A stretch of DNA of 64,000 nucleotides, taken from the NCBI GenBank assembly GCA_029863605.1, contig JAOTVB010000002.1, positions 248,001 through 312,000 of the forward strand, written 5' to 3'. The translations under genes were made by a program, and so were the position numbers. Positions 5,160-36,875 of the stretch are shown one piece after another (the first letter of the stretch is position 1; each line of letters opens with the position of its first letter). The notes under the pieces are model-generated. The model had not been told where the DNA came from. It worked only from the letters and a program-made list of their open reading frames with translations, and made no database searches. The DNA is from Myxococcales bacterium. Its GTDB lineage: Bacteria; Myxococcota_A; Polyangia; Polyangiales; Houyiibacteriaceae.

Positions 5160-5224
5160 CGGTCCAGGCATGTTCCGTCAGTCTGCGCCCAGCTTCAAGC
5201 AGCGGCAGCCCTCCCTGTACAGCT

Positions 5225-6880
5225 CTATTCGCCGAGCACGCGAAGGAACGCCTCGAGCCTGTCGAGATCGCTGTCCGTCAGGTGCGGCAACGGCACGAGC
5301 TCATGCGGCATGACGTTCGACCGCACAGGAGGCGTTCGGTAGAACTCCAGCACTTCGCGCAGGTTTGAAAAGCGCCCGTCGTGCATATACGGGGGCGTTT
5401 TCGCTGCACCCCGAATGCTCGGCACCTTGAACGCGCCTGCCAGATGCGCTTCCGGCGCGAGGTGTTCAAGCTCGCTACAACGTTCGCGATCGTCGGAGTA
5501 ACGGCCGCGGCAATTGAACTCATCCAGGATTGCAGCTTGCACACCTGCAATCCGACCCACATCCAGGCTTGCCGGATCCGACGAACCAGTTCCGATGTTG
5601 TGAAAACCACCGTTGGTGAACATCGGGCCATTGTGACACTTTATGCATTGATTTTTCGGATCGATGAAAAGCCGGAGTCCGGCGATCTCGGAGTCGCTCA
5701 GAAGCCCACCCGCTTCGGGCGCATCGGCGTAGCGATCAAAACGCGTCTGCCCGAACTCGAGCGTCGACTCGAACGCTGCAATCGCCTTTCCAACGTTTGC
5801 AAACGCCACGTTGATCGACCGTTTTGTCCGAATGGGCACGTTCCGCCACGCGACGCGGTGTGCCTCCGGACCGATGGGACCTGCCTGCAACACCGACACC
5901 CCCTCCAGGGAGGGCAGTTTGCCGAACAGAGCTTCGTAGGCGCGCTTGTACTCCGCGTCGTCCCGGATTGCACGCACGACTGCCAGCCGGCTGGAACCCA
6001 TTTCGCGAGCAGACTCGAGCGGCACGAGTGCCTGCGCCCACAAGCTGTCACGCCGACCATCCCAATAAAACCATCGTTGCCACGCGGCGCCGACCACACT
6101 CGGCGTATTGCGGTCGAGAACCGCGAGCCCCTTGCCCGTTCTGCGTCCGTCCGTGAACGCCAGAGACTCCTGATGACACGTCGCACATGACACCTCACCA
6201 GTCGCACTGAGCTTCTCGTCGAAGAAGAGTGCGCGACCAAGCTCAACGGCACGGGCGTCGTCTTGCACGCGATTGGTGCGATCGCGGGGTCGTGTGCCCG
6301 CCGCGGCCAACGACAGACTTCGCAGCAAACCAATCTCTGACGCGTTCCACGCAGAACTATGATGCGCGTGGTTTCCTGCTGATTGCAGTGTGATTGTGAA
6401 GACTGCGCGATGCCACCGATCCCCTTCGAGCACGCGAACGATCATCTGCCATTCGCCACCCATGTTGAAACGCATGCCATTCACGAGGAACATACCGTTG
6501 CCGAGATACCGCGAGACCGCAGGCTGGGTCGGTAGCCCGTGTCCATGCGAGGGCATGCCACCATTCACCACGAGCGCTTCCGGCATGAACGGCGTCGGAT
6601 TGTCCGACCCACGCAGCACCTGAATGCGCCACCGATGCATCACGTTGACGGGGATCGGCAGCGTATCGGTGTGAACGACCACAAGCACTCCACCCGTGTC
6701 GCTCTGAGCGTTCGCCACAAACACCCAAGCAGGTGTCTCGACCGGGTCTTTGGAATGCTCGACCTGCTGCGCTGCGCCCACACCCGCGTCAGCGCGCCTG
6801 ATGGGCTGTTTGGAGTTGCAACCGCTTGCCACCATGGCCGTCGCGAGGAGGACCCAGCACCATTTGGCTCGTCGACGCAT
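5225..6880 (-). CDS. Di-haem cytochrome c peroxidase/MauG-family lipoprotein with N-terminal YtkA-like domain
   Basis: 551 aa from the ATG at 6880; an earlier in-frame start at 6937 would overlap the upstream gene, while 6880 gives a classic lipoprotein signal (RRR, hydrophobic core, lipobox VASGC with Cys21). Residues about 50-165 resemble YtkA/FixH-type beta domains (PEALVVNGGMPSHGHG, GEWQMIVRV). The rest is a bacterial di-haem peroxidase/MauG domain with haem motifs CATCH (Cys232) and CIKCH (Cys412) and the family stretches LGRALFFDEKLS and NTPSVVGAAW. Such enzymes reduce hydrogen peroxide or oxidise partner proteins in the periplasm or at the outer membrane. It starts 28 bp after the oxidase-cytochrome fusion gene, so the two are probably co-transcribed. 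Confidence 0.88.
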   Translation of the reverse strand: MRRRAKWCWVLLATAMVASGCNSKQPIRRADAGVGAAQQVEHSKDPVETPAWVFVANAQSDTGGVLVVVHTDTLPIPVNVMHRWRIQVLRGSDNPTPFMPEALVVNGGMPSHGHGLPTQPAVSRYLGNGMFLVNGMRFNMGGEWQMIVRVLEGDRWHRAVFTITLQSAGNHAHHSSAWNASEIGLLRSLSLAAAGTRPRDRTNRVQDDARAVELGRALFFDEKLSATGEVSCATCHQESLAFTDGRRTGKGLAVLDRNTPSVVGAAWQRWFYWDGRRDSLWAQALVPLESAREMGSSRLAVVRAIRDDAEYKRAYEALFGKLPSLEGVSVLQAGPIGPEAHRVAWRNVPIRTKRSINVAFANVGKAIAAFESTLEFGQTRFDRYADAPEAGGLLSDSEIAGLRLFIDPKNQCIKCHNGPMFTNGGFHNIGTGSSDPASLDVGRIAGVQAAILDEFNCRGRYSDDRERCSELEHLAPEAHLAGAFKVPSIRGAAKTPPYMHDGRFSNLREVLEFYRTPPVRSNVMPHELVPLPHLTDSDLDRLEAFLRVLGE

Positions 6881-6908
6881 CAGCAACGCCCACCGTAGTC
6901 GCGAAGGC

Positions 6909-9900
6909 TCACGATTGCGCAGCGATATCTCGACCACGGTGTGAGCGGCGTCGCCAACGCACGCCCGCCAGCATCAACACCGCAAACACGGTGAACGGGG
7001 GCTCATCTGCACTTGGCGCGGTGACAGAGCAACCGGCATCGACGATCGGTTCATCCTCGATAGTGCGAAGGTATTCCGCTATCTCATCGATGGTCTCCGC
7101 GGGAAGCCCCGAAGCCGAGTCATGACTTTCAATCGCCTCCTCCAACGTCACGGCAGAACCATCATGCAGGTAGGGAGGAGTTGCCCACACGCTCTGTAAC
7201 GATGGCGTGTCGAGTCCATCGAGTGGTTCACCGAGGCGTTGGCCGGACGTCGCTGCCAGCGTTCCGACGTCATGTCGGGCACCCGTCTCGCTATCGGTCC
7301 TCGCCGCGCCACCATGACAGAGGTTACAGCCCGCATTCAAGAACTCGAACCTTCCGTTCATGACAGTCGGGTCATCAGGAGTCGTGCCAAAGGGGCTCTC
7401 CGGAACGGCCGTAAGCGAGTGCACATACGCTGCCAATGCATCGAGATCTGGGGAAATCCCTGCCTTCGGATCGCCGAGTGGATCCTGACGTGTTCCGAAG
7501 AAGAAATCCTCGTCGTCCATGAGGCCGGTGCCGCCGGCAAACGTACGGATCTGCGCTTCGAAATCCTGAATCTCGTCGAAGTTGCCACTCCAGTGAACCA
7601 GGCCGTGACCAGGTCCTCCGCGACCGACCAGCGTGATCGTGTTGCGCAACCCCTCTCCGACCGAGGCGAAATCCCACACACGGCCGTCTTCTTGGCCCTC
7701 CTTGTGGCACGACGCACAGCTCATGTAGTCGAACGCAGCAAGGCGATCGTCTGCTGCGTCGTAGAAGAGCTGCTTGCCGGCGAACACGGTGGGGTCGAGA
7801 GCCTCTGATTGACTCGTGCCAACCACCGAGAGCTCGGAAGCGCTCGTCACCGCATCACCCTGAATTATGGCGTCGACGTCGATGATGGTGACCGTCCGAT
7901 CCATGAAGTTGTGGATGTACAAACGGTTGTCAGAAGAACGCACGAGCCCCTGGGGTGCTCGCCCAACCTGCATGCGTCCGAGCTCCACACCCGACACAGC
8001 ATCGTTCACGACGACCTGGCGATTTCCCTCGAGCAATGTAAACAAGTGAACGCCAAGAGGCCCAAACACCGCATCGGTCGCGACAGAGGCGTCGTCATGC
8101 TCGACTCGGGCGTCACGAACCTCTCCGAGCGTCGTGAGATCGATGTGCGAACTCACGGCGCGTACCGCCTGGTCGAAGCGAAGCGCTTCGCCACTGCGCA
8201 TCGTGCCTCCTAGAATGTTGTCTTGCTTCGAAGGCACATACGCCATCAAACCGGTAGGCGCGATCACCGCCGGGCCCAGATAGTTCGGAATCCCGGGACC
8301 ACTGTGCTCGGTCGGCGCGACATTGCTGTGGCCCAATATGATCGGTGTGCCTACTTGCAATGTTTGTGCGTCGACCGGTGTGACCCAAGCGCCATACTCC
8401 TGGACGCCATCGTCAACCACTGGCGCCGTCCCCGCTTCGCCCGGAAGAGGTGGCGTCACGAAGTGCGACACCAAGAGGGTTGCAGACTGTGGGTCGATCG
8501 ACAGATGCCGTGGACGCGGACCCACATCTACAAACTGCACCTCGCTGCTCGTGATACGGGCGACCTGGCCGGTCGCCTCGAGTGCGACAAACACGTCGCT
8601 GCCAAAGAACACGATCCCGTGAGGCTGTGAGCCACGTGGAAGCAAGACCGTGTCGACGCGCGCGAACGTGCCCGTGTCGTGCACGGAGATGGTGGCGCTC
8701 CCCTTGTTCGCCACCCAGGCTTCCGGCGCCGCCGGATGCAAGGCTATCGCCCACGGCTTGTCATCCGTCGCAAGCTCACCGAGATAGGTCCCACCAGCGT
8801 CGATCACCGTCAGGGTGTCTTGATCAGGGTTTACGTTCCAAATGCGATCCCCACCTGCGTCAGCATCGAGTGCGATGGTCGACGAATGTCGCGGTGGCTC
8901 TGCCAAGAACGCGTCGGCATGAATCACCTGGACGAACTGCTGACTGATCTGTCGGCCCGCTTGATCCGAGGCAAGGACGATGACCGTATACCGACCGGGG
9001 TCCGTGTAAGTATGCATCACGGCTGAATTGGTCGTCGTGGTCCCGTTGCCATCGCCGAACGCCCAGTCGTAGTCTATCGTTCCAGCGCCTTGTGCTGGAG
9101 CGGACCACATCACGGTATCGCCCACCGGTCGTGGCTGGGTCTGGACGATTGACGTGAACTCCAACGGAACGCTGACTTCGCCCACATCTCGTCCATCGAA
9201 GGAGGTCTCCGAGAAAGCCGGGCCGCTCCAGCGAATTCCGAGTTGTGCGGGCCCACCGGCGTTGAACATCTGTACCTCAACGTCATGATATCCGGCTGTC
9301 AACGAAACCGAACCGTCCGCGCGGGCAAGCGAGTGCACGCCGTCGTTGTCGACCACCAATGCGCTGTCCACGAGAAGTTTCGAACCATCGTCCGATAGCG
9401 TTGCGAAATTGTAGGCACCGGTCGTATCGACGAAGAATTGTGCGCGGAACCGAAGGGCGTAGTCGTTATCGCGGAGCCGAACCTGCAACGTAAAGTCGTC
9501 CGTCGTGCCTGTCGTTTCTGGCGTCAACGCGTCCATGTCAGGCAGCGCCGACCAATTGCCGTGAAACACCTCGTAGCCGATGGGCATGTCGGGTTGCACG
9601 GTATCACGCACCACTTGGAGTGTGTGACCGATCGACGGCACACCCTGCGCATCGACCGCGAACAACCAGTAGTACCCCTGAACGAGCACGTTCGGGTTGT
9701 CATTGAGAAAGAGAGTGTACTGGCCCGGTGCGTCTTCAACGAAGTCGACCGGCACGAATCGCGCGTCGGTGTTGATGGAGTGCGTCACACCGGCAAGCCG
9801 GATCATGTTGAACGCCTGCACTCCGGGGCTCGCAGTGATGCTATGCGCATCGCCAGAGTGTGCGGTCGGTGCGCTCTGGGAGATCACGGGACGCACTGCT

Positions 9901-11144
9901 GGCACCCCGCCCGCTGCAAACAGATAGGGCGGTGAGAAAATTTCGGCGTCTTGATGGTTCTCCGGGCAATTCCCGCAAAGACCACCGCCCCCCGACAGGA
10001 CGCGTCCGTCCTTTAGTAGCAGCGCTACGGAGTGGTAGTTGCGCGGCACCGTGTGCGACGCCATCGGCGTCCACTGATCGGTTGCCGGATCCCAGATCTC
10101 CGGCTCCAGAATACTCGTTTGGTCATTGAAGAGCTTGGCGTTCTCGTTGCCCCCAACGACGATGAGCTGGCCTGTCGGCAGCAGGACCGCGTTGTGGTTG
10201 GTACGCTTGTGCGCCATATCACTGGCTTGTTGCACCACCGGGGCGGCGCCATTGATATCGATTTTGATCGCTTCGCGTGATGAGGCTTCGGGCGCTTTTC
10301 GGTCCTGCCCGCCAGTCACCAATACCTTGCCGACGTCATACATCGTCGCTGTTCCGAACGCGCGCGTTTGATCTCCGCCAAGTCGTGTGCCGGCAGCCTC
10401 GATGTCGCCGGAGCCCACCGCATCGTACCAATGCATGCTGGGCCATGGCCCGGAGTGGAAGACGCGCCCGTCCGGTGCGACGTGCAAGAACGACCACCAC
10501 TGCGAGGTCGTGCCACCGTTGTTCGCGCTTCCGGCGTTTGTAGCTGCCTGCTCATCGGCCGCTGTCGTCATCTCCATGCCGGGCAAAGCCGTCCACCGAT
10601 CGACGGGTGCCGAATAGCGCTCCACAACCGGGCCCGCGCCCTGAGCGAACACCGCCGTCACCTCGTCGTTGGGCAGCGTTAGTTGCGTTCCGTACCAACG
10701 AGGGAAACCCATGTCCGCCCGTCTGGACCACGTGAGAGCCTGGGGATCAAACGCTGCCGTCCGTCGGTTGACTTGCCGGCCGCCCGTCACCATCACCGCA
10801 CCGTCCTCCATCAACGAAATGCCGGCGCAGAAGATGTCGTTATGAGGATTGTTCGTTGTCGTGAAGCTGATCGAAACGGGATCGAATACGGCCGAATGCG
10901 TGAAGAACTCCCCGTTGTTTGGAAACGCTGTCTCCCTGCTTGCGGACCAAGTCACAACACGACCATCCGGCAGATTCGCGGCGGAGACAGGAATGTGCGG
11001 CCACGCGATCACCGGACTCCACGCACCGACGACTTCCAGACCTTGTGCAGACGCACCGACCGTGGTGAAAAGCGCCGCGGAACACATACCGAAAAGAAAC
11101 GCCAGCGCGCCATGGCGGAGCGAATGGAGGGGTTTGGTTGTCAT
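6909..11144 (-). CDS. Secreted copper-radical oxidase (galactose/glyoxal oxidase-like) fused to PA14, PKD, beta-propeller and di-haem cytochrome domains
   Basis: 1411 aa from ATG 11144, chosen because a Sec signal peptide starts there (earlier in-frame codons to 11252 do not look like coding). Residues about 40-515 are a kelch-type galactose oxidase with its C-terminal domain; the copper and radical residues are all present: Cys106 (DIFCAG), Tyr151 (RWYGTQL), Tyr370-His371 (RNYHSVALLL) and His455 (GVTHSINTD). The stacking Trp of Fusarium galactose oxidase is not apparent, so the substrate may differ. Then come a PA14 domain (about 524-650), a PKD domain (660-744, YDWAFGDGNG), a YVTN-type propeller (754-1114), and a cytochrome/MauG-like part with CASCH (Cys1143) and CNLCH (Cys1273). 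The end is MYXO-CTERM-like: Gly-Cys1372, a hydrophobic helix, then RWRRR. Probably displayed on the cell surface. Confidence 0.88.
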   Translation of the reverse strand: MTTKPLHSLRHGALAFLFGMCSAALFTTVGASAQGLEVVGAWSPVIAWPHIPVSAANLPDGRVVTWSASRETAFPNNGEFFTHSAVFDPVSISFTTTNNPHNDIFCAGISLMEDGAVMVTGGRQVNRRTAAFDPQALTWSRRADMGFPRWYGTQLTLPNDEVTAVFAQGAGPVVERYSAPVDRWTALPGMEMTTAADEQAATNAGSANNGGTTSQWWSFLHVAPDGRVFHSGPWPSMHWYDAVGSGDIEAAGTRLGGDQTRAFGTATMYDVGKVLVTGGQDRKAPEASSREAIKIDINGAAPVVQQASDMAHKRTNHNAVLLPTGQLIVVGGNENAKLFNDQTSILEPEIWDPATDQWTPMASHTVPRNYHSVALLLKDGRVLSGGGGLCGNCPENHQDAEIFSPPYLFAAGGVPAVRPVISQSAPTAHSGDAHSITASPGVQAFNMIRLAGVTHSINTDARFVPVDFVEDAPGQYTLFLNDNPNVLVQGYYWLFAVDAQGVPSIGHTLQVVRDTVQPDMPIGYEVFHGNWSALPDMDALTPETTGTTDDFTLQVRLRDNDYALRFRAQFFVDTTGAYNFATLSDDGSKLLVDSALVVDNDGVHSLARADGSVSLTAGYHDVEVQMFNAGGPAQLGIRWSGPAFSETSFDGRDVGEVSVPLEFTSIVQTQPRPVGDTVMWSAPAQGAGTIDYDWAFGDGNGTTTTNSAVMHTYTDPGRYTVIVLASDQAGRQISQQFVQVIHADAFLAEPPRHSSTIALDADAGGDRIWNVNPDQDTLTVIDAGGTYLGELATDDKPWAIALHPAAPEAWVANKGSATISVHDTGTFARVDTVLLPRGSQPHGIVFFGSDVFVALEATGQVARITSSEVQFVDVGPRPRHLSIDPQSATLLVSHFVTPPLPGEAGTAPVVDDGVQEYGAWVTPVDAQTLQVGTPIILGHSNVAPTEHSGPGIPNYLGPAVIAPTGLMAYVPSKQDNILGGTMRSGEALRFDQAVRAVSSHIDLTTLGEVRDARVEHDDASVATDAVFGPLGVHLFTLLEGNRQVVVNDAVSGVELGRMQVGRAPQGLVRSSDNRLYIHNFMDRTVTIIDVDAIIQGDAVTSASELSVVGTSQSEALDPTVFAGKQLFYDAADDRLAAFDYMSCASCHKEGQEDGRVWDFASVGEGLRNTITLVGRGGPGHGLVHWSGNFDEIQDFEAQIRTFAGGTGLMDDEDFFFGTRQDPLGDPKAGISPDLDALAAYVHSLTAVPESPFGTTPDDPTVMNGRFEFLNAGCNLCHGGAARTDSETGARHDVGTLAATSGQRLGEPLDGLDTPSLQSVWATPPYLHDGSAVTLEEAIESHDSASGLPAETIDEIAEYLRTIEDEPIVDAGCSVTAPSADEPPFTVFAVLMLAGVRWRRRSHRGRDIAAQS

Positions 11145-11533
11145 GGAAGGAATGGGGTCGAGGGGATGGCCTCTAGAAAGATACCATCTGTAAAGTTGCG
11201 ATCCCAGCGGGTTCCCGAGGTATCTCTTTCGACAGGCGTATGCTTTGCGCAACTGGCCAAGCGCCTGCTACCGCAGTGCGGGCGGACCAGGACTTCTCGG
11301 GGGTCGTAAGCCTTCGTTGGTGGCCCGATGACCGCGCCCGACCTGCGCGTCGCCGACAGCCCGCTACCTCTTCGAGTGGCCCGACGAAGCGAAGCCTGCG
11401 ACGAGGGAGACGACAATGACGTCGGGGTTGCGATCGGCACACCGTGTGTCAAAAGGCCCCCCTTGGTGCCCTTTTCGCCTCTGATTCACTGGCTGGTCTC
11501 GAGCTCGAGCTACATACTTCGGTCCTGCGACCG
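11145..11533. other. 389-bp gap upstream of thrS, divergent from the oxidase gene
   Basis: This must hold the promoters of the leftward oxidase gene and the rightward thrS operon. I see no extra gene. A weak stem (AAAAGG with CCTTTT around 11450-11474) lies about 60 bp before thrS and could be part of its leader. No recognisable T-box or other riboswitch. Clear -35/-10 pairs could not be assigned. Confidence 0.5.
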
Positions 11534-14172: not shown

Positions 14173-15324
14173 TTACTTCACTGAGAACGCGATCGCGGGC
14201 TCGGTATCCGCGAAGCGCGTAGTGAGATACTGGTCGTAACCCACGTCATCGAGCATGTGTCGTCTGAAGAACGACACCACGTAGAGGTTCTGCAACCGGC
14301 TGGCTTCTGCGATCGGAAATACGTCCTCGCTACAGGTAGCGTTATAAGGCTCGATGAGGTCGTCCGCCATGAAAAGGGGCCAGCTCTCCTGTTCGATTCC
14401 CAGGTCGAGCAGCAGTTGACCGAAGGTACAGACCGCCGCGAAGTGGAAGTGGTTCGCACCGATGACGTCAACCTCGTAGACGCGGGGTGCGTTGACCATC
14501 TGCTCGAACGCGATCGCGTGATTGCCGATCGGCACGTTCACATCTTCCGTCCCGCCGATCAGCATGACCGGTACCACGACGCCAGCGAGCTGCTGTTGGC
14601 TGAAGCCGGCGAACGGCGATGGGCGATCATCGAGCTGCATCTCGCCGTCGATGACCACGGAAATCGGCGCTATGGCGGTCACTCGACGGTCTGCTGGGGC
14701 GCCTGCCCAGCCTGCGGCCATGCCGACCGCAGTCGACGCGCCGAACGAGTTACCCACGACGCCGAAGCTTTCCTCATCGATGCGCTGGTAGAAGGCGTCT
14801 TCCGGATCGCGGTTGCGCGCGACCATCCAATCGATGAGAAACGACACATCCGGCACGCGATTGGCTGCCGCTTCGTCAAAGGTGTCGGTGGGCGATGCTT
14901 GCGCGTTTCCAGTGTGTTCCGGCGACGCGACGATGAATCCATGGCTCGCGAGCGCCTCCATGAGCTCGATCGATTGGAGGTTGATTCCTTGATAACCGTG
15001 CGAGAACACGAGGAAGGTCTGATTCTCGCGGCCCGACACGGGCACATCGTCCATCGCGACCTTCGATTCGAGGCCAATGGTGGGCCCGGCCAACGGGTAG
15101 AACGTCAGCGGGCCGTCTTGCACCTGGTCGTCGTCTACCGGGTACCAGAGGTCCACGAGGATCGAGCGATCCTCCCGTGCCGCATCGACGGCGGTGAGTT
15201 GCTCGTGACCCACCGCAAACGGGCCGAGCTCGTCCGGAGCGTCGACCGACTGGTTGGAATCGTCGCAGGCGATAAGCCCTAGGATGAGAAAAGCAATCAA
15301 GGAAGCACGAGTCAATGAAATCAC
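14173..15324 (-). CDS. Alpha/beta-hydrolase lipoprotein, platelet-activating factor acetylhydrolase-like
   Basis: 383 aa from GTG 15324, chosen because it yields a lipoprotein signal (LTRASLIAFLILGLIAC, lipobox Cys20); a longer frame extends to 15456. The fold shows an oxyanion region (FSHGYQG), nucleophile elbow GNSFGAS with Ser193, an acid (GTEDVNVP, Asp261) and a His region (ANHFHF, about 292-294), the pattern of PAF-acetylhydrolase type II and related dienelactone-hydrolase-like esterases. It would cleave ester bonds of small lipids or similar compounds at the cell envelope. It is convergent with infC and divergent from a carotenoid oxygenase with a 152-bp gap, part of the block that interrupts the translation operon. 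Confidence 0.75.
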   Translation of the reverse strand: MISLTRASLIAFLILGLIACDDSNQSVDAPDELGPFAVGHEQLTAVDAAREDRSILVDLWYPVDDDQVQDGPLTFYPLAGPTIGLESKVAMDDVPVSGRENQTFLVFSHGYQGINLQSIELMEALASHGFIVASPEHTGNAQASPTDTFDEAAANRVPDVSFLIDWMVARNRDPEDAFYQRIDEESFGVVGNSFGASTAVGMAAGWAGAPADRRVTAIAPISVVIDGEMQLDDRPSPFAGFSQQQLAGVVVPVMLIGGTEDVNVPIGNHAIAFEQMVNAPRVYEVDVIGANHFHFAAVCTFGQLLLDLGIEQESWPLFMADDLIEPYNATCSEDVFPIAEASRLQNLYVVSFFRRHMLDDVGYDQYLTTRFADTEPAIAFSVK

Positions 15325-15476
15325 GTCGCGTACGAACTCCGTAACGCATGTTTCGACGGGAAAGAGGTAAACGCAAGGCTGAGATTTGGCGGCCAATGCG
15401 TCAAATCGCGTCTCCATGAGCCTGCGATTGACTCCTAACGGCCAGGCTTCTATCAAGCTAATTGCGGAGCATTCTC

Positions 15477-16946
15477 ATGAACCGTCGGAAATTCGCCGAG
15501 CTCCATCTGGGCCTCAATCGGCGCGCCTTTCTGAAGCAGACCAGCGCAGCAGCCTTGGGAGCGTCCGCATCCAGCTTGTGGCTGCCAGGATGTGGTAGCG
15601 ATGCGTCGGGCGGCGAAGAACCATTCGACCCATCGAAAGCCTGGTGGTTGCAGGGCAACTACGCGCCCGTCTTCGACGAGGTCGAAGCAAGTAATCTCCA
15701 GGTCCGAGGCTCGATCCCGGCTGCGCTCGACGGGCGCTATATCCGTAACGGCTCCAACCCGAGCAATGGTGAGTCCGCACACTGGTTCTTCGGCGACGGG
15801 ATGCTTCACAGCGTCCGGCTGAGTGGTGGGCGGGCGATGGCGTATCGCAACCGGTGGGTCCGCACGGGCCAGCTCGCGAACGGTGGAGTGCTGGGCGGAA
15901 TTCCCGGCGGTGCGAACAACGCATCCAACGTGAGCGCGATCTATCATGCGGGGCGGCTGCTCACTTCTGGTGAGGTCGGCCTGCCGTTCGAAATCGACCC
16001 AAGTGACTTGTCAACGATGGGCCTGTTCGACTTCGATGGTGGGCTCACGCAATCGTTTACGGCGCACCCCAAGATCGACCCGGCCACCGGTTACTTGCAC
16101 TTTTTCGGCTACTGGTTTCTCGGCGAGGATTTGCTGCTGTATCACGTGGCGGACGACAACGGAGAGCTGATTTCCACGGAGCGTGTGCCCGTCGGCCAGA
16201 CGACGATGATTCACTCGTTTGCCATCACCGAGCAAGACGCGGTGTTCTGGGAGGCGCCAGTCCTCTTCGATATCGACGCTGCGATCGGGGGCGAGGCCGT
16301 ACCGTTCAGGTGGGACCCGAGTTACGGGGCGCGTATCGGAGTCATGCCCCTTGGTGGTCCGGTCGGAGACATCCGATGGGTCGAGGTCGATCCGTTTTAC
16401 GTATTTCACGAGGTGAATGCCTATCGCTCGGGCGACGACGTGATCGTCGACGTGTGTTGGCACCCAGACATGTTCAACGGCGCGGATTTGGGCGACAGCT
16501 CGGGCGGCGCCGTCAAGCGCTGGAGGATCAACACGGCGGGCACGGAGCTGACCTACAGCGAGGAAGTAGTCGCCGACCGTCTGTTCGAGCTCGCGAGCCA
16601 CGACCGCCGGTTTACCGGCCGACAACATCGCCATGGTTGGTTCGCCGTTACGCGTGATCGGCCGGAGACTGTCGACTTTGCGGGCGTCGGCCACATCGAC
16701 TATCAAACCGGTGTCGCCTCCGAGTGGGACCCGGGAATCACACGTCACGCCGGAGAGGCGTTCTTCGTGCCGGGTGATTCGGGCGACGCGGAGGGCTGGC
16801 TCCTCAGCTTCGTCTACGACCACGTCGCTCAACAAAGCGTGCTTGCCATCTTGGATGCCCAGGACGTGGCCTCCGGCCCCGTTGCCGAGGTGGTCATGCC
16901 GCAACGGGTTCCGTACGGGTTTCACGGAGTCTGGATCCCCGAATGA
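15477..16946 (+). CDS. Carotenoid oxygenase (RPE65/CCD family), TAT-exported lipoprotein
   Basis: 489 aa from ATG 15477, with GGAG seven bases upstream. The N-terminus has a twin-arginine signal (NRRAFLKQTSAAALG) and a lipobox-like LPGC (Cys39), so it is exported folded and may be lipid-anchored. The rest is a carotenoid cleavage dioxygenase: RGSIPAALDGRYIRNGSNP early, and four iron-binding histidines, His197 (TAHPKI), His246 (MIHSFA), His311 (VFHEVNAY) and His483 (GFHGVW) near the C-terminus. Family members cleave carotenoids, stilbenes or lignin-derived compounds with O2; the substrate cannot be told here. Export is unusual for this family. Neighbours are a lipoprotein esterase (divergent) and a LuxR-type regulator (downstream). 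Confidence 0.88.
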   Translation: MNRRKFAELHLGLNRRAFLKQTSAAALGASASSLWLPGCGSDASGGEEPFDPSKAWWLQGNYAPVFDEVEASNLQVRGSIPAALDGRYIRNGSNPSNGESAHWFFGDGMLHSVRLSGGRAMAYRNRWVRTGQLANGGVLGGIPGGANNASNVSAIYHAGRLLTSGEVGLPFEIDPSDLSTMGLFDFDGGLTQSFTAHPKIDPATGYLHFFGYWFLGEDLLLYHVADDNGELISTERVPVGQTTMIHSFAITEQDAVFWEAPVLFDIDAAIGGEAVPFRWDPSYGARIGVMPLGGPVGDIRWVEVDPFYVFHEVNAYRSGDDVIVDVCWHPDMFNGADLGDSSGGAVKRWRINTAGTELTYSEEVVADRLFELASHDRRFTGRQHRHGWFAVTRDRPETVDFAGVGHIDYQTGVASEWDPGITRHAGEAFFVPGDSGDAEGWLLSFVYDHVAQQSVLAILDAQDVASGPVAEVVMPQRVPYGFHGVWIPE

Positions 16947-29845: not shown

Positions 29846-31165
29846 TCAGCGCACGGCGCCCATCATTTCGAGGAACTCCTCGCTTTCTACCAGGCCGGTG
29901 ATCCGCGAAGCCTCGGAGCCGTCGCTGTTGTGTAGCACCACGAACGGAAGCCCGGGTTGCTCGTACGACTTGAGCAATGCCCATTTTTCATCGGTCGCTT
30001 TGTCGGCGCTCAGGTCGACCCGAACCGCCACGAATCTCTGCGCTTCGGCGACGACTCGCGGGTCGCTCAGCAGATCTTGTTCGATCTCGAGACACGCGCC
30101 GCACCAATCGGCACCGAAATCGACCAGCATCGGGCGTTGCTCGGAGAGCGCAGTTTCCTTGCCCGTCCCGTAGTCCTCCACCCATGCGATGTGACTACCC
30201 GCGGGCAGTGCTTCGGCCCATCCAACGATCCCCAGCAGACCGGCGACGCAGGCGGCAACCCCGAGGCCTTTCCGTATCCGGGTCCCCCAAGGGCCGCCTT
30301 GGAACGACAAGTGAATGGCTCCCGCAGCGATGCCCCCTGCGACTAAGCCGAGCGCAATCGCAAGCCACGTGCCGTCGCGCACCGCCGGGCGCGGGTATGG
30401 GAGAATGCTGCGCACGTAGTAAAGCGCAAGCGCGAGCATCGCGATCCCGAAAATACTCTTGGTCCATTCCACCCACCGGCCTGACTTTGGAAGGGTGATC
30501 GCGAAGGTGCCAACGAACCAAAAGAGAACGCCAATACCGATGGCGTATGTGAAGAGTGCGAGGGCGCCAAACCCCACGTGACCGGTCGTGGCGACCCACG
30601 TCAAAAGCACCGCCAGGACAGGACCTGTGCAAGGCGCAGCGATCAACCCGTTGACGAACCCGAGCACGAACGCTCCGCGGACCCCGAAGCCGCCCGCTTG
30701 CGCAAGACGGTTTTGCAGCCCCGCCGGCAGCGCCACATCGAAAAGACCGAACATGCTGAACGCCATCGAGGCGAAGAGCGCGGCTAGCGCACCGACCACC
30801 CAAGGACTTGCGAGCGCGCTCCCGAACGCGCCTCCAGTCAGAGCGGAGATGATGCCGAGGGGAGTGAACAGCGCTGCGATACCCAGCACGAAGGATGTAG
30901 ACAACACCGCGGCTCTCGGGCGGCTGTCCGCCTGCCTAGCCCCGAAGACGCTGACCGTGATCGCGATCATCGGGTACACGCACGGAGTCAGCGAGGTCGC
31001 CAGTCCTGCTACGAAGATCAGCCCTAAGGCCCCAGTGTAGCTCCCGCCTTGCAGGGCATCCGCGAAGGGCGCCATCAGGTCCGAGAGCGTATCGGCGGAC
31101 GCTTGCAGTCCCGGCATGAAACCCGCGACGAACGCCGCAGTACCAACCCAAGCAGTCCTACGCAT
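29846..31165 (-). CDS. Thiol:disulfide interchange protein, short DsbD type
   Basis: 439 aa from ATG 31165. A signal or first helix is followed by an eight-helix DsbD membrane domain with the redox cysteines Cys62 (LTPCVYP) and Cys179 (AAPCTGP), then a periplasmic thioredoxin domain with WCGAC (Cys355, Cys358). The periplasmic N-terminal domain of E. coli DsbD (about 565 aa) is absent. It moves electrons from cytoplasmic thioredoxin to periplasmic partners, including cytochrome c maturation, which fits the several haem-c proteins in this window. The next gene downstream encodes a HiPIP. Confidence 0.9.
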   Translation of the reverse strand: MRRTAWVGTAAFVAGFMPGLQASADTLSDLMAPFADALQGGSYTGALGLIFVAGLATSLTPCVYPMIAITVSVFGARQADSRPRAAVLSTSFVLGIAALFTPLGIISALTGGAFGSALASPWVVGALAALFASMAFSMFGLFDVALPAGLQNRLAQAGGFGVRGAFVLGFVNGLIAAPCTGPVLAVLLTWVATTGHVGFGALALFTYAIGIGVLFWFVGTFAITLPKSGRWVEWTKSIFGIAMLALALYYVRSILPYPRPAVRDGTWLAIALGLVAGGIAAGAIHLSFQGGPWGTRIRKGLGVAACVAGLLGIVGWAEALPAGSHIAWVEDYGTGKETALSEQRPMLVDFGADWCGACLEIEQDLLSDPRVVAEAQRFVAVRVDLSADKATDEKWALLKSYEQPGLPFVVLHNSDGSEASRITGLVESEEFLEMMGAVR

Positions 31166-31199
31166 GGCCCCAATATGGTGCTCGTTTGGTTGACCGTCC

Positions 31200-31790
31200 A
31201 TGAACCGGGGACGTAGCCTCTCGCTGGGAAGCACTTTGCCGCTACTTTTTTTGCTGTTCATCGCTTTCGCGACCGGGGCCCTCGCCGCCCATGCAGGTCG
31301 CGAGGAAGTCCGTCATAGCGCCGACCCGATGTGGCGGATGGAGGCGTTCTTGGCATACGCGCTCTTCGTGGGATTCCTTCTGATCCCGACGGCTTTCTAC
31401 TTCTACGTGTTTCATGGCGATTGGTTTCTCTTCTACGGAGTCGATACCGGTCGCGCCCCTTGGGCATGGGGCATTTTGGTACTGGTCGCTGTGGCCGGCG
31501 TAGCGGCGCTCGGATTCCGCCTCAGCGCTGCTTTGTGTCGCGTCGACCGCGAGGTAGCGGTTCGCCGCATTGCGGGCGCGGCACTCTTCGTTGCGCTCGG
31601 TGTTTGGCCGCTGGCTTGGGGGCGACTGTCGCTCGTCGGCTCGTACCGAGAGTTCACGCGGGACTACGGTTTGACCGGTTACTTCTCTAGTGCCGCCTTC
31701 TATTCAGGCCTAGTGATGCTGATTCTGCTGAGCGCCTCGTTCGTCTGGGTGGTCTATCGCATCGACGATCACACGCATGGCAAGACGTAG
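31200..31790 (+). CDS. Polytopic membrane protein of unknown function
   Basis: 196 aa with about five hydrophobic segments (near residues 12-30, 50-70, 88-108, 122-142 and 165-188). Aromatic-rich motifs between them (FYFYVFHGDWFLFYG and YREFTRDYG) and no enzyme motif that I recognise. It is divergent from dsbD with only 34 bp between start codons, so the two share a promoter region. An envelope or energy-related role is only a guess. Confidence 0.7.
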   Translation: MNRGRSLSLGSTLPLLFLLFIAFATGALAAHAGREEVRHSADPMWRMEAFLAYALFVGFLLIPTAFYFYVFHGDWFLFYGVDTGRAPWAWGILVLVAVAGVAALGFRLSAALCRVDREVAVRRIAGAALFVALGVWPLAWGRLSLVGSYREFTRDYGLTGYFSSAAFYSGLVMLILLSASFVWVVYRIDDHTHGKT

Positions 31791-31799
31791 CGGCGCCCG

Positions 31800-34700
31800 C
31801 TATGGTCGCGTGATCAACCCCATGTGCTCCCGCAGGTGCATCGCGGCAGCCGACGCCCAAAAGCTCAACGCCTCTCGATATGCAGGGTGATCGTGCAGCG
31901 CCGTTCCCTCTGCCCCACGTTCGGGCGCAATCCGGCTTTGGAGGTCTTGCACGAGCGGCTCGAGCTCGTCGCAAAGCAGTAGAGCCACTCTCGTCGCCGT
32001 TCGCCGCGCCGCCTTGACCCAGCGCTCGAACTTGACGCGCCGGGCTTCCGCGTACGCGAGCGCCGTTTCGCGTACGTGCCTGCGATCGCGTCTAGGGATC
32101 GCCCGCTGTAGGCGGCGGGTTTGCTCGTCGAGAAACTCCTCGCTCGTCAGACCTATCCCGAAGTCTGGTTTTACGGTGCGCGCAGCCGAAGCTAGAAGAA
32201 CGTCCAGCTCCCGCGGGGTGAGCTTCTCGATCGCGTGGTAGCCGCGGGCGATTTGTGTCAGAGGCTGCGCCAACAGGAATGTCTGGCTGCCCGGACTCTT
32301 CTCCATGATGGTGGCCGGCACCAGAAGTGCCGGTTGGGCGCCAAACTCGACGGTAATCCCGCGATTGCGGACGCGGTGGAGAAACAGATCGAAACCTCGA
32401 ACATCCAATGTGGCCGCAATCCGGTTGGCGATTTCGCGCAACGGGTGGTTGGCCTCGGTCGCAAGACGATCACGGGTAGCGAGACCGTAGCTTTCGAGCT
32501 CGGGAGGATAGAGCTTGGCGAGCGCCGGGCTCAGTGCGGCGAGCAAAGCGCCCGCCGCCTCGTCTTCGGCGCGCGGCGTGCCCAGCTGGTCCAAGACTTG
32601 CCCTCGTAGCGACTTCGGACGTGCGCGAGCTGGAGCTCCCGAAGCTGACGCAATGCGTTGTCGATCCTCTTCATCGTCGACCCCGAATAAGCGCAGCGGC
32701 AACGACGCGATCCGAGCCTCCTGCACGCGGCCTTGCGACTCGTATGTGAGCGCAAGCTCCCGCCATATGTCTTCGCGCAACGGATCTACGGTCAACACCT
32801 CTTGCAGATGGCCGACGGCCCCCGTGCTGTCGCCTCGCTTTCGAAGCCTCACCGCAAGCTCTCGTCGTAGGTCTGGGCTCGAGACGCCCTCCTCGAGCGC
32901 CGACGAGAGTGCCCTGATCGCGGCCGCCTCGTCCCCGCAATGGTCGGACAGGATGCGCGCAATCTCGAGCACCGTCGTCACGCGGTCGGGCTCGTCACTC
33001 GCCTCGTAACGACCAAGCGCATCCGCGTAGGCCCTCCAGTCGTCGATCGTGGTACAAAGCGGCTCGAGTTGAAACGCGGCTTTGCTGCGCGGACCGTCGA
33101 GCTCGACCGCACTCGCGAGCGCCTCGCGCGCTCGGGCCGCGTTGCCAGTCGCGTTTTCCAACTGGCCAAGGCGCACCAGCGTGTGCGCATGATCGGCCTG
33201 GCCTTCGTTGATCTCCAGTAGATGGCGCGTCACTTGAAGCGCCTCGGGGACTTGTCCGAGCTGCTCGTGCACTAGCGAAAGTTCCTGTAGAGCAGGGGCG
33301 TGAGCGGGATCGGAGGCCAGCACCGAGTCGACGTGTCGGAAGGCTTTTTCGGGCATGCCGAGGCGCTCACGATAGAGTTGAGCTAGCTCGAGTTGCACCC
33401 GCTGGAGCTGGTCGCTCTCAGGGGCTGCGGCCAGGAGTTGTTCCATCGTAGCGGCAGCCTCGTGCCAGGACTCGTTCGATCGAAAGAGAAGAGACAATCG
33501 TTCGAGCGCGTCCAAGTGGCGTGGCTCGACTTTGAGCACCCTCTGCAGCGTGCGGATCGCACCTGCGACTTCTCCGAGGTCTCGGCTTTGAATCCGCGAG
33601 ACCTCGAGCCAGAGCGCGCTTGCCCGATCGACCGAGCCGGCGCTCGAAGCGGCCTGCGACAAACGGTCGACCAACGCCGCCCAGTTCGCATCGACGGTGA
33701 GAACATCGATCAAACCCTCGGCCGCACGCTCCGAGTCGGGCCACAGCTCTAGCGCACGCTCGAAATCGCCGCGTGCACCATCGTGGTCGCCTGCTCGTTC
33801 GAGGCGAACGACTGCGCTTTGGACGTATAAGTCCGAAGCCGCCTTGCTGTCTCGTTCGGACGCAGCTTCACGCCGGAGCGCGTCGACCAGAGCGTTGGGA
33901 TCGTCGGTTTCCTGAGCGACTCGGGTCAGCCCCCGGGCAGCACCGATGTGGTGTGGGTCCGCCGTTGCTGCAGCGCGGAATTGCTCGATCGCCTCGCTAA
34001 CGGCCGAACCTTCCGCGCGCTCGCCGAGGCGCGCGCGATGAACCGCTAACACCGCCGGGTCTTGTGCAGACTTGGCAAAGAACGAATCGACTTCGGCGAG
34101 AAGCTCCAGGTTCTGGGAGTCGACGGCGAGCCTTTCGAGCTCCAAGAGCGCACCCAAGTCACATGGCGCCGCGTCGAGCACCCGGCGATAGGCGTCCACG
34201 ATGGCTTCACGCTCACCAAGCCCCTGATGCTCGAGTAGCCTTGCCAGCTCGTATAGCGCGGCCACGCGAGCCGACGGCTCCTGAAGAACCTCGGCTTGCG
34301 TCGAATGTATTTTGCAGAGCGATTCCCACGCTCCAACTTGCCGATAGAGCTGTTCGAGCGCGAGCAGCGCGCCGAGATGCCGATCGTCGATCGAGAGGAC
34401 CTCCTCCCATGCCTGAATCGCCTGCCGATGCTTGTCTTGGCGCTCGAGCACCTGTGCTTTGCGAGCGTGGAGCGCGATGCGTTGACCTGGGTCTTCCGTC
34501 AGCTTGGTCTCACGATCGATGTCCGAAAGGAGGCGCGTCCAGTCGTGTTCCTCGGCCCGAACGCGAGCCAATGCGTCCACGGCCGGTCGATAGCTCGAGT
34601 CGGCCGATACAGCGGCTTCGTAGGAGGTCACGGCCTTGGTGAGATTGTCGAGATGTTCTTCGTAGGCCTGCCCGAGAAGAAACGCCGAGCGCGCCCGGAC

Positions 34701-36875
34701 CCGCGATGTGCTCGAGTTGCGGAGCTGAAGCTCGAGGATGTCGACAAGCTCTTCCCACGCGCCTCGCTCTCGTAGCTGGCGCGCAAGCTCCTGCAGTGAA
34801 GGGGCATGCCCGGGATCCACCTTGACCGCCTCGCGGTGATACCGCAGTGCGTCTTCGTTACTTCCCAGTCGGTCACGTGAAATCTCGGCCATCTTTTCGA
34901 GGAGGGCGACGCGTCGATTCTTCGCAGAGGTCAATCGCAGCTCCTGCCCATACACGTCGAGTAGGTCGTTCCAGCGACCTGCCGCATAGTAGAGGCGCCC
35001 CAGGTTCGACAGCGTCGGAATGTGCCTTGGATCCTTCTCGAGCGCGCGTCTATAGCGAGCGATAGCCTCGTCGCGGTCATCGAGCTGCTCGTCCAGCACT
35101 TCACCGGTACGGTGCAACAGACCGACCAATCGGTCGCGTTCCACCGTCAGATTGATTTCGTAGTCGAGGGCTTCGAGGAGCTCACGGGGACGCTGCGCCC
35201 TCGCTGCGGAACGCTGCCAGGCGTGGACGGCCGCGAGGTGGCTCGAATCCTGTTGCAAAACGCGCTTGTAGGTTTGCGCGGCGAGCGCGTGCTCCGCGAG
35301 AACATCCTCGTAGATCTGCGCAATCTTCAACAGGTACGACACGGCGCGCGTGCCCGTCGCCCGATCGAGCGCATTCTCGTATAGCTGAACCAATTCTTTG
35401 GGACGATGAACGTCCGACAGTAGCCGCGCGAGCGCCTTGAAGGCGGTCGAATGGTCAGGCATCGCATTCAGCGCGCGGTGGTAGTGCTCGACCGCCTCAT
35501 CGATGCCGTTCAGCCTGGTCTCGAAGATCTCGGCCGCCCGTGCATGGGCATCGGCCCTGCGTTGAGCATCCCTCGTGTACCGCGCTTCGCGAAGACACAT
35601 TTCGATGAGCTTGGGCCAAGCACCTCGAACCCGATACAGCAAGCTCAACGCCTGTAGGCTCGATAGGGAGGTCGGGTGAAGCTCCACGGCTCGCTCGTGC
35701 CACGCGATCGCCTGGTCGACGTCTCGCAGCTCTTCTTCGTAGAGCCGGGCAATGCGTTGCGTGAAGGTCAGTCGCTCCGCGTCGTCATCCGTAGCCTCGG
35801 TGAGCACTTCGAGCGTCTCGACGAGCGCTTGGAGTCGCTGACTGGCTTCGTAGTGACGCGCTAGCTCCGCGAGAATGAGCGAGTCGTCCGGCCGCAACCG
35901 ACGCGCTTGCTCCAACGTTCGAATCGCTTCGTCACGGTTTCCGAGGCGCTCTGCATGAATACGCGCCGCGCGATACAGGGAAGACGCCTGATTCGCAGGG
36001 TCGAGCGCCAGTTTTGCTTCCGCCTCGAGCGTCCTGATCAAATCACGCCATCGCCGTTGGCCGTAGTAGAGACGTTTGAGCGCCTGAACCGCGATGGTTG
36101 CGTTGGGGTCGAGCTGAAGCGCGGTCTCATAGAGCTCCGCGGCCTGCTCGGGCCGCTGCTGGCGACTCTCGAGGAGCTGGGCACGACGAATGAGCAACGC
36201 TGCGCGATGGTTGTCGTCCGACGCAGCTGCATTGGCGAGCTCAGCAAGATTCCGATCGACGTCTTCCCAACTCTGGTTGGCGAACGCTCGCTGCTCGGTG
36301 GCGTGCAAGATGGCGGCGTGCGTGCGGTCGAGGGCACGGGCGGTTTGATAAGCGTCCTCGGCGTCCTCGCGATTGCCAAGCACGTCTTCGAGCAGGCGCC
36401 CCTTTAGCAAGAAGAGGGTCGCCTTGTCGCGGGGTTGACGCGTAACCCGTGCCTCCGCGTCGAACAACGCAAGGGCATCAGGGAACATCCTGGCGCCGAG
36501 CAGGAGTCGACGTGTGGCGCGAATCGCCGGGACATAGTCAGGCGCCCGCTCAAGCGCAGCCTGATAATATTGCAAGGCCCGTCGCGTGTCCTTGAGGGGG
36601 CTTTCGCACGTTCGCGCCATTTCGAAATAGAGCCGCGCTGCCCGCCGAACGTCGGGCTGGTCCCGAAGCTCTCGCTCGCACTCCTCGACCCACTCCCGTG
36701 CGCGACGCATGTGGTCACTCGGGGTCCGTGGCGGCGCGTCCGACCTTCCACCGTCGACGAGAGTTGGGGGGGTAGGCGGCCTTGCGCTGTCCGGTTCTTC
36801 GACGAGATCGTCTTGGCCGAGCTCCTGCGTCAATTCGTGACGCAGAGCCGTAATGTCCCCATCCTCCAGACCCAT
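31800..36875 (-). CDS. Giant tetratricopeptide-repeat protein
   Basis: 1691 aa. After an acidic N-terminal stretch (about 1-55), almost the whole protein to about residue 1400 is tandem TPR-like helix pairs, with repeats such as AALERAPDYVPAIRATRRLL, AIRTLEQARRLRPDDSLILA and AIARYRRALEKDPRHIPTL. The last 280 residues are a different helical domain (FDLFLHRVRNRGITVEFG; LTPRELDVLLASAART). No signal peptide or membrane helix is evident, so it is probably cytoplasmic. Such proteins are common in Myxococcota and likely act as scaffolds. It lies downstream of the rpoH-like gene with an 88-bp gap that contains a compound hairpin. Confidence 0.85.
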   Translation of the reverse strand: MGLEDGDITALRHELTQELGQDDLVEEPDSARPPTPPTLVDGGRSDAPPRTPSDHMRRAREWVEECERELRDQPDVRRAARLYFEMARTCESPLKDTRRALQYYQAALERAPDYVPAIRATRRLLLGARMFPDALALFDAEARVTRQPRDKATLFLLKGRLLEDVLGNREDAEDAYQTARALDRTHAAILHATEQRAFANQSWEDVDRNLAELANAAASDDNHRAALLIRRAQLLESRQQRPEQAAELYETALQLDPNATIAVQALKRLYYGQRRWRDLIRTLEAEAKLALDPANQASSLYRAARIHAERLGNRDEAIRTLEQARRLRPDDSLILAELARHYEASQRLQALVETLEVLTEATDDDAERLTFTQRIARLYEEELRDVDQAIAWHERAVELHPTSLSSLQALSLLYRVRGAWPKLIEMCLREARYTRDAQRRADAHARAAEIFETRLNGIDEAVEHYHRALNAMPDHSTAFKALARLLSDVHRPKELVQLYENALDRATGTRAVSYLLKIAQIYEDVLAEHALAAQTYKRVLQQDSSHLAAVHAWQRSAARAQRPRELLEALDYEINLTVERDRLVGLLHRTGEVLDEQLDDRDEAIARYRRALEKDPRHIPTLSNLGRLYYAAGRWNDLLDVYGQELRLTSAKNRRVALLEKMAEISRDRLGSNEDALRYHREAVKVDPGHAPSLQELARQLRERGAWEELVDILELQLRNSSTSRVRARSAFLLGQAYEEHLDNLTKAVTSYEAAVSADSSYRPAVDALARVRAEEHDWTRLLSDIDRETKLTEDPGQRIALHARKAQVLERQDKHRQAIQAWEEVLSIDDRHLGALLALEQLYRQVGAWESLCKIHSTQAEVLQEPSARVAALYELARLLEHQGLGEREAIVDAYRRVLDAAPCDLGALLELERLAVDSQNLELLAEVDSFFAKSAQDPAVLAVHRARLGERAEGSAVSEAIEQFRAAATADPHHIGAARGLTRVAQETDDPNALVDALRREAASERDSKAASDLYVQSAVVRLERAGDHDGARGDFERALELWPDSERAAEGLIDVLTVDANWAALVDRLSQAASSAGSVDRASALWLEVSRIQSRDLGEVAGAIRTLQRVLKVEPRHLDALERLSLLFRSNESWHEAAATMEQLLAAAPESDQLQRVQLELAQLYRERLGMPEKAFRHVDSVLASDPAHAPALQELSLVHEQLGQVPEALQVTRHLLEINEGQADHAHTLVRLGQLENATGNAARAREALASAVELDGPRSKAAFQLEPLCTTIDDWRAYADALGRYEASDEPDRVTTVLEIARILSDHCGDEAAAIRALSSALEEGVSSPDLRRELAVRLRKRGDSTGAVGHLQEVLTVDPLREDIWRELALTYESQGRVQEARIASLPLRLFGVDDEEDRQRIASASGAPARARPKSLRGQVLDQLGTPRAEDEAAGALLAALSPALAKLYPPELESYGLATRDRLATEANHPLREIANRIAATLDVRGFDLFLHRVRNRGITVEFGAQPALLVPATIMEKSPGSQTFLLAQPLTQIARGYHAIEKLTPRELDVLLASAARTVKPDFGIGLTSEEFLDEQTRRLQRAIPRRDRRHVRETALAYAEARRVKFERWVKAARRTATRVALLLCDELEPLVQDLQSRIAPERGAEGTALHDHPAYREALSFWASAAAMHLREHMGLITRP

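Follow-up and report, generated by a model that had tools for sequence, protein, structure and literature searches.

A predicted copper-radical oxidase joined to a propeller-di-haem module in a Myxococcales bacterium, and its MbnH/MauG-like partner gene

The fusion gene and its domains

We analysed a 64,000-nucleotide stretch of the genome of a Myxococcales bacterium (contig JAOTVB010000002.1, positions 248,001 to 312,000; hereafter the window) in which a single gene joins a copper-radical oxidase (CRO) to a di-haem cytochrome c domain. The gene occupies 6909-11144, exactly the interval named in an original prediction made from the DNA letters, and is read from the minus strand as an intact frame of 1411 amino acids with its ATG at 11144 and its stop at 6909, the plus strand over the same interval holding many stops in the corresponding frame. 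Profile searches of the protein agree with the domain order proposed in that prediction (oxidase, PA14, PKD, propeller, two haem sites). The full set of copper and radical residues that had been claimed is present as Cys106, Tyr151, Tyr370, His371 and His455, and the two CxxCH haem sites as CASCH (residues 1143-1147) and CNLCH (residues 1273-1277). We regard this architecture as near certain, and the protein is probably secreted and surface-anchored, judging from its sequence. The features of the gene are as follows.

6909-11144, minus strand: fusion gene encoding CRO, PA14, PKD, YVTN propeller, di-haem cytochrome c and MYXO-CTERM-like tail (profile searches)
11043-11144, minus strand: predicted signal peptide, about residues 1-34 (hydrophobic stretch to ASAQG, judged by eye)
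9609-11039, minus strand: AA5/galactose-oxidase-like catalytic domain (kelch propeller and E-set), about residues 36-512
10827-10829, minus strand: Cys106, partner in the Tyr-Cys cofactor (galactose oxidase Cys228, by alignment)
10692-10694, minus strand: Tyr151, radical tyrosine (galactose oxidase Tyr272, by alignment)
10032-10037, minus strand: Tyr370-His371, copper ligands (galactose oxidase Tyr495-His496, by alignment)
9780-9782, minus strand: His455, copper ligand (galactose oxidase His581, by alignment)
9219-9470, minus strand: PA14 domain, residues 559-642
8925-9128, minus strand: PKD domain, residues 673-740
7809-8912, minus strand: YVTN-type propeller, about residues 745-1112 (AlphaFold2 model and fold comparison)
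7035-7808, minus strand: di-haem cytochrome domain, residues 1113-1370 (profile and PDB sequence match)
7704-7718, minus strand: first haem site
7314-7328, minus strand: second haem site
7122-7124, minus strand: His1341, predicted sixth ligand of the electron-transfer haem (by alignment)
6945-7034, minus strand: MYXO-CTERM-like C-terminal sorting signal (TIGR03901, 19.5 bits against a cut-off of 20)

A one-off fusion or an assembly artefact is ruled out by an intact orthologue with 89% identity in another metagenome-assembled genome and by many further relatives. Chance occurrence of the haem motifs was likewise rejected, as the pair appeared in none of 20,000 shuffles of the fusion protein. 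Among plausible genes elsewhere in the window, CxxCH motifs occur only as the two belonging to a partner gene described below.

The CRO core (residues 28-511) matches a solved galactose oxidase (9g8h, phmmer E=4e-93), and entries for the classical enzyme, 1gof among them, follow at E of about 1e-72. It has both the kelch propeller and the galactose-oxidase-like E-set (residues 418-511) that characterize AA5 enzymes. The five copper and radical residues are invariant in all 17 fusions that cover those positions. AA5 oxidases such as galactose oxidase, fungal alcohol oxidase and GlxA share with the fusion this kelch and E-set arrangement, the Cys-Tyr site, the ligand tyrosine and both histidines. 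However, those we found described have no fused cytochrome, and GlxA belongs to a more distant subfamily. The second-shell Trp290 that marks galactose 6-oxidases is also absent: the window protein has no Trp around the position aligned with it, and L005 alone among the fusions has one there. The substrate may thus be something other than galactose. The window CRO is predicted to be an AA5-type alcohol or aldehyde oxidase.

The second half of the protein was modelled with AlphaFold2 from an alignment of 53 sequences (mean predicted local distance difference test, pLDDT, 91.2; predicted template modelling score 0.92). By Z score, the propeller is nearest among solved folds to hydrazine synthase beta (Z 36.0 over 299 aligned residues, root-mean-square deviation 2.0; runner-up 34.5). 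Foldseek and VIA-align lists were dominated by propellers, so the di-haem domain was assessed by sequence and profile rather than by fold. Its best PDB sequence match is a weak one to hydrazine synthase gamma (E=2e-8), narrowly above the di-haem enzyme 6e1c, and it scores just over the profile cut-offs of CCP_MauG (PF03150; 25.7 against 25.6 bits) and RoxA-like_Cyt-c (27.4 against 26.7 bits). It also matches the family of the partner protein (hhalign 99.7%), and its conserved Trp1185 aligns with the Trp of that family's WDGR motif. A histidine is found at the position of His1341 in 17 of 18 fusions, and one in the same loop in most other members listed, so that the electron-transfer haem of the fusion is predicted to be bis-His. 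The corresponding sixth ligand is Met in bacterial cytochrome c peroxidase and Tyr in MauG, and His1341 in its place rules out a classical enzyme of either kind.

The propeller and haem sites had been listed as separate elements; both are present, but together they make up a single module resembling hydrazine synthase beta-gamma, in which a propeller likewise precedes a CCP-like domain with two haems and the second haem is bis-His (5c2v; PMC12758564). That enzyme differs in its Cys165, which cross-links haem gamma-I and aligns with Ala1204 of the fusion, ruling out hydrazine synthase proper, and in that the fusion is joined to a CRO. The fused beta-gamma subunit has distant homologues that are reportedly very common among environmental bacteria (PMC12758564), and thus the second half of the protein is a module of an already known kind. 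In all, 154 of 379 Myxococcota genomes contain some match to the fusion protein, chiefly to its propeller-di-haem half and in many cases with no CRO. Longer CRO-free module proteins carry LVIVD repeats (7 of 20), Big_5 or PKD domains, and the module also occurs with Ig-like domains or alone.

The partner gene and the two-gene unit

The 3' end of the fusion gene is overlapped by 29 bp by a second gene, which the original prediction left unmentioned and which travels with the fusion. Its features are listed here together with the block that the two genes form.

5225-6937, minus strand: partner gene, 570 amino acids, N-terminal YtkA-like beta-sandwich and MbnH/MauG-like di-haem domain
6173-6187, minus strand: first haem site of the partner, CATCH
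5633-5647, minus strand: second haem site of the partner, CIKCH
5202-11424, no strand assigned: inserted two-gene block relative to the sister genome G013

The YtkA match of the partner lies below the profile cut-off and its structural model is poor (pLDDT 59.5), so the N-terminal beta-sandwich is only suggestive. The partner resembles MbnH of the MbnP/MbnH pair (TIGR04052/TIGR04039) and MauG in being a di-haem enzyme with a Tyr at the axial position, but it falls under the MbnH equivalog cut-off (TIGR04039, 143.2 against 362.85) and has a YtkA-like domain in place of MbnP. The tyrosine in question, Tyr533, is invariant in 12 of 12 partner sequences, and from alignment with 6e1c we infer that it is an axial ligand of the MbnH/MauG type. 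The partners of Verrucomicrobial fusions combine this di-haem domain with an MbnP domain, for which all three scanned score above the PF20243 cut-off. Additionally, an unfused CRO in Myxococcota (L042, 2432-5950, plus strand) converges on a gene (6001-8490, minus strand) whose product contains three MbnP stretches and an MbnH-like domain. Elsewhere in the window, 29846-31261 (minus strand) encodes a DsbD-like cytochrome c biogenesis protein with a thioredoxin domain that is possibly relevant to haem attachment.

Across 19 genomes of the genus, fusion and partner occur together in two and are both missing from the other 17. The window and L003 are homologous over just the two genes (5214-11145, 88% identity), which lie at another site in G013; there the sequences that flank the window pair stand about 70 bp apart. 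This limited homology together with the empty site indicates that the pair behaves as one transferable unit. Insertion directed by a tRNA is unsupported, as the site in the window lacks a tRNA. The sister genome carries two copies of a 55-bp sequence upstream of thrS (L133:8443-8497 and 9231-9285), and one copy is present in the window at 11425-11479.

Distribution, origins and gene linkage

CRO-di-haem fusions are present in Myxococcota, in Verrucomicrobiota and on one Comamonadaceae plasmid. Besides the congeneric protein (G013/L003, 89%), they comprise other Myxococcota loci (L035-L038, L095-L098), Verrucomicrobiota loci (L004 from Roseibacillus, L089-L094) and the Comamonadaceae plasmid (L005). 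The fused CROs sort into lineage A, which includes the window, lineage B, lineage C (L005) and lineage D (L038), with the lineage C domain grouping among Burkholderiales, Streptomyces and fungal oxidases. A single clade of fused CROs was rejected by the approximately unbiased test for A+B+C (p=7e-5), A+C (3e-5), A+B (1.3e-3) and all fusions (3e-5), with the caveats that some groups were named after the tree had been seen and that lineage B sits on a long branch. The fused CRO domains derive from three or more lineages, with at least four changes of state on the tree. The modules of lineages A, B and C group into a single clade of 18 members, and the L038 module falls elsewhere. Distinct CRO lineages and a separate L038 module imply that the joining, or a swap of the CRO, took place more than once. 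Two candidate neighbour open reading frames (ORFs), L095:7052-7807 and L038:4778-5554, were set aside as spurious-looking frames.

The genes adjoining these loci differ by lineage. An MbnH/MauG gene is adjacent at 12 of 13 lineage A loci, none of which has an SCO motif, whereas SCO is found at 11 of 12 lineage B and C loci and unfused relatives, none of which has an MbnH-type gene (Fisher about 1e-5, with loci counted as independent despite their kinship). No MauG-type gene is adjacent to any of 20 module proteins that lack a CRO. The reciprocal pattern suggests that the partner gene fills in lineage A the role that SCO has elsewhere, although this is a correlation among related loci. On Burkholderiales plasmids (L121-L124, L126) a standalone CRO lies beside an SCO gene, in most with a small ORF bearing one CxxCH, so that CRO and cytochrome occur there side by side in unfused form. 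A separate ORF with eight CxxCH motifs (L099:3-1598, minus strand) was seen near a standalone CRO and SCO gene.

Binding modules and neighbouring genes point to plant or algal polysaccharides as a setting. The lineage B fusion L095 carries AbfB, CBM60 and CBM2 domains, which are xylan-, arabinan- and cellulose-binding modules, and the lineage B fusions L095 and L096 adjoin a gene for GH67 alpha-glucuronidase.

Other genes of the window include a carotenoid-oxygenase protein of the RPE65 family (15462-16946, plus strand, E=3e-107), an alpha/beta hydrolase with profile matches to platelet-activating factor acetylhydrolase and PETase-like enzymes (14173-15456, minus strand), and a tetratricopeptide-repeat protein of 1691 amino acids (31800-36875, minus strand).

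Candidate mechanisms and significance

We tentatively favour a secreted oxidase whose own haem module activates the tyrosyl radical and which is matured by the partner. The CRO would oxidise an alcohol or aldehyde, likely a polysaccharide or other extracellular alcohol, to the aldehyde or acid while reducing O2 to H2O2. CROs have an inactive resting state that lacks the radical, and a haem peroxidase paired with the fungal enzymes activates them by one-electron oxidation (PMC9770985); the di-haem domain would act on the copper centre in the same way. Using either the H2O2 that the CRO itself makes or a high-potential haem, the domain would oxidise the inactive Cu(II)-tyrosine form by one electron and so restore the Cu(II)-tyrosyl radical needed for activity, and the bis-His haem would serve as a relay. 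The YtkA-MbnH/MauG partner (MbnP-MbnH in Verrucomicrobiota) would load copper or mature the cofactor, as SCO would for other CROs.

Two known systems resemble this scheme in part. The fungal tandem alcohol oxidase-peroxidase of Colletotrichum and Magnaporthe likewise pairs a CRO with a radical-activating haem enzyme, but it consists of separate genes and uses a class II haem peroxidase with no c-type haem (PMC9770985). Streptomyces GlxA needs both the haem peroxidase DtpA and the copper chaperone Sco for maturation under copper limitation; however, DtpA is a DyP peroxidase, the components are unfused, and the oxidase belongs to the GlxA subfamily (PMC4736821).

We count in favour of haem activation the intact catalytic residues, the recurrent joining of CRO and module, the linkage to copper and haem genes, and the movement of the pair together. 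Several observations weigh on the other side. The di-haem domain is closer to hydrazine synthase gamma than to true peroxidases, so that peroxide use stays inferred, and PA14 and PKD linkers (others in relatives) could hold the copper and haem centres far apart. Additionally, lineages B and C have no adjacent MbnH, and the presence of the module in many CRO-free proteins means that its function is not tied to copper chemistry.

In a doubtful alternative, the protein is a cytochrome-linked dehydrogenase: electrons from the alcohol would leave reduced copper by way of the bis-His haem for an external acceptor, which would spare O2 and release no peroxide. The predicted relay haem does resemble the electron-transfer haem of hydrazine synthase gamma, and the operon-like grouping of unfused Burkholderiales CROs with SCO includes, in its one-CxxCH ORF, a plausible acceptor devoid of a peroxidase motif. 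However, CROs are two-electron O2 oxidases, and to our knowledge no natural cytochrome acceptor for a CRO has been described. Haem activation and electron drain are inseparable on present evidence, and the di-haem module would do one or the other. The original prediction's suggestion of a possible peroxide or electron acceptor is thus still a fair reading of the haem domain. A bolder proposal, possible but to be held lightly, is that a hydrazine-synthase-like module is wired to the Cu-tyrosyl site of a self-contained extracellular enzyme. The redox state of the haems would then either turn the oxidase on and off or convert it into a cytochrome-linked dehydrogenase, and an MbnH-type enzyme would take the place of SCO as its dedicated copper or cofactor maturase.

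It is unlikely that the haem module instead disposes of the released H2O2, or uses it on a second substrate, while leaving the copper site untouched. Membership of the CCP/MauG superfamily and the alignment of Trp1185 with the WDGR Trp would suit such a peroxidase, but the second haem is bis-His rather than Met or Tyr ligated, and relatives have the same module with no oxidase. That the CRO and the module merely have separate functions on one large surface protein is quite improbable given their repeated pairing with each other and with copper and haem genes, even though domains shuffle freely in the large surface proteins of these phyla and the module has LVIVD propeller, Ig-like and solitary contexts.

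Each part of the system is already known in kind and the combination appears new. The original prediction held that no described enzyme has this exact order, and none turned up in the literature searched, which left most subscription journals outside and contained no description of the CRO-di-haem combination, its recurrence or its link to copper genes. Recurrence in three bacterial phyla suggests a real extracellular oxidation system, one that combines the propeller-di-haem architecture of hydrazine synthase with copper-radical chemistry. The system bears on how nature activates CROs and on what MbnH-type di-haem enzymes do for copper proteins in organisms other than methanotrophs, and because oxidase, haem partner and likely maturation gene lie in two adjacent genes, both questions are directly testable. 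It may also offer self-activating oxidases for biocatalysis.

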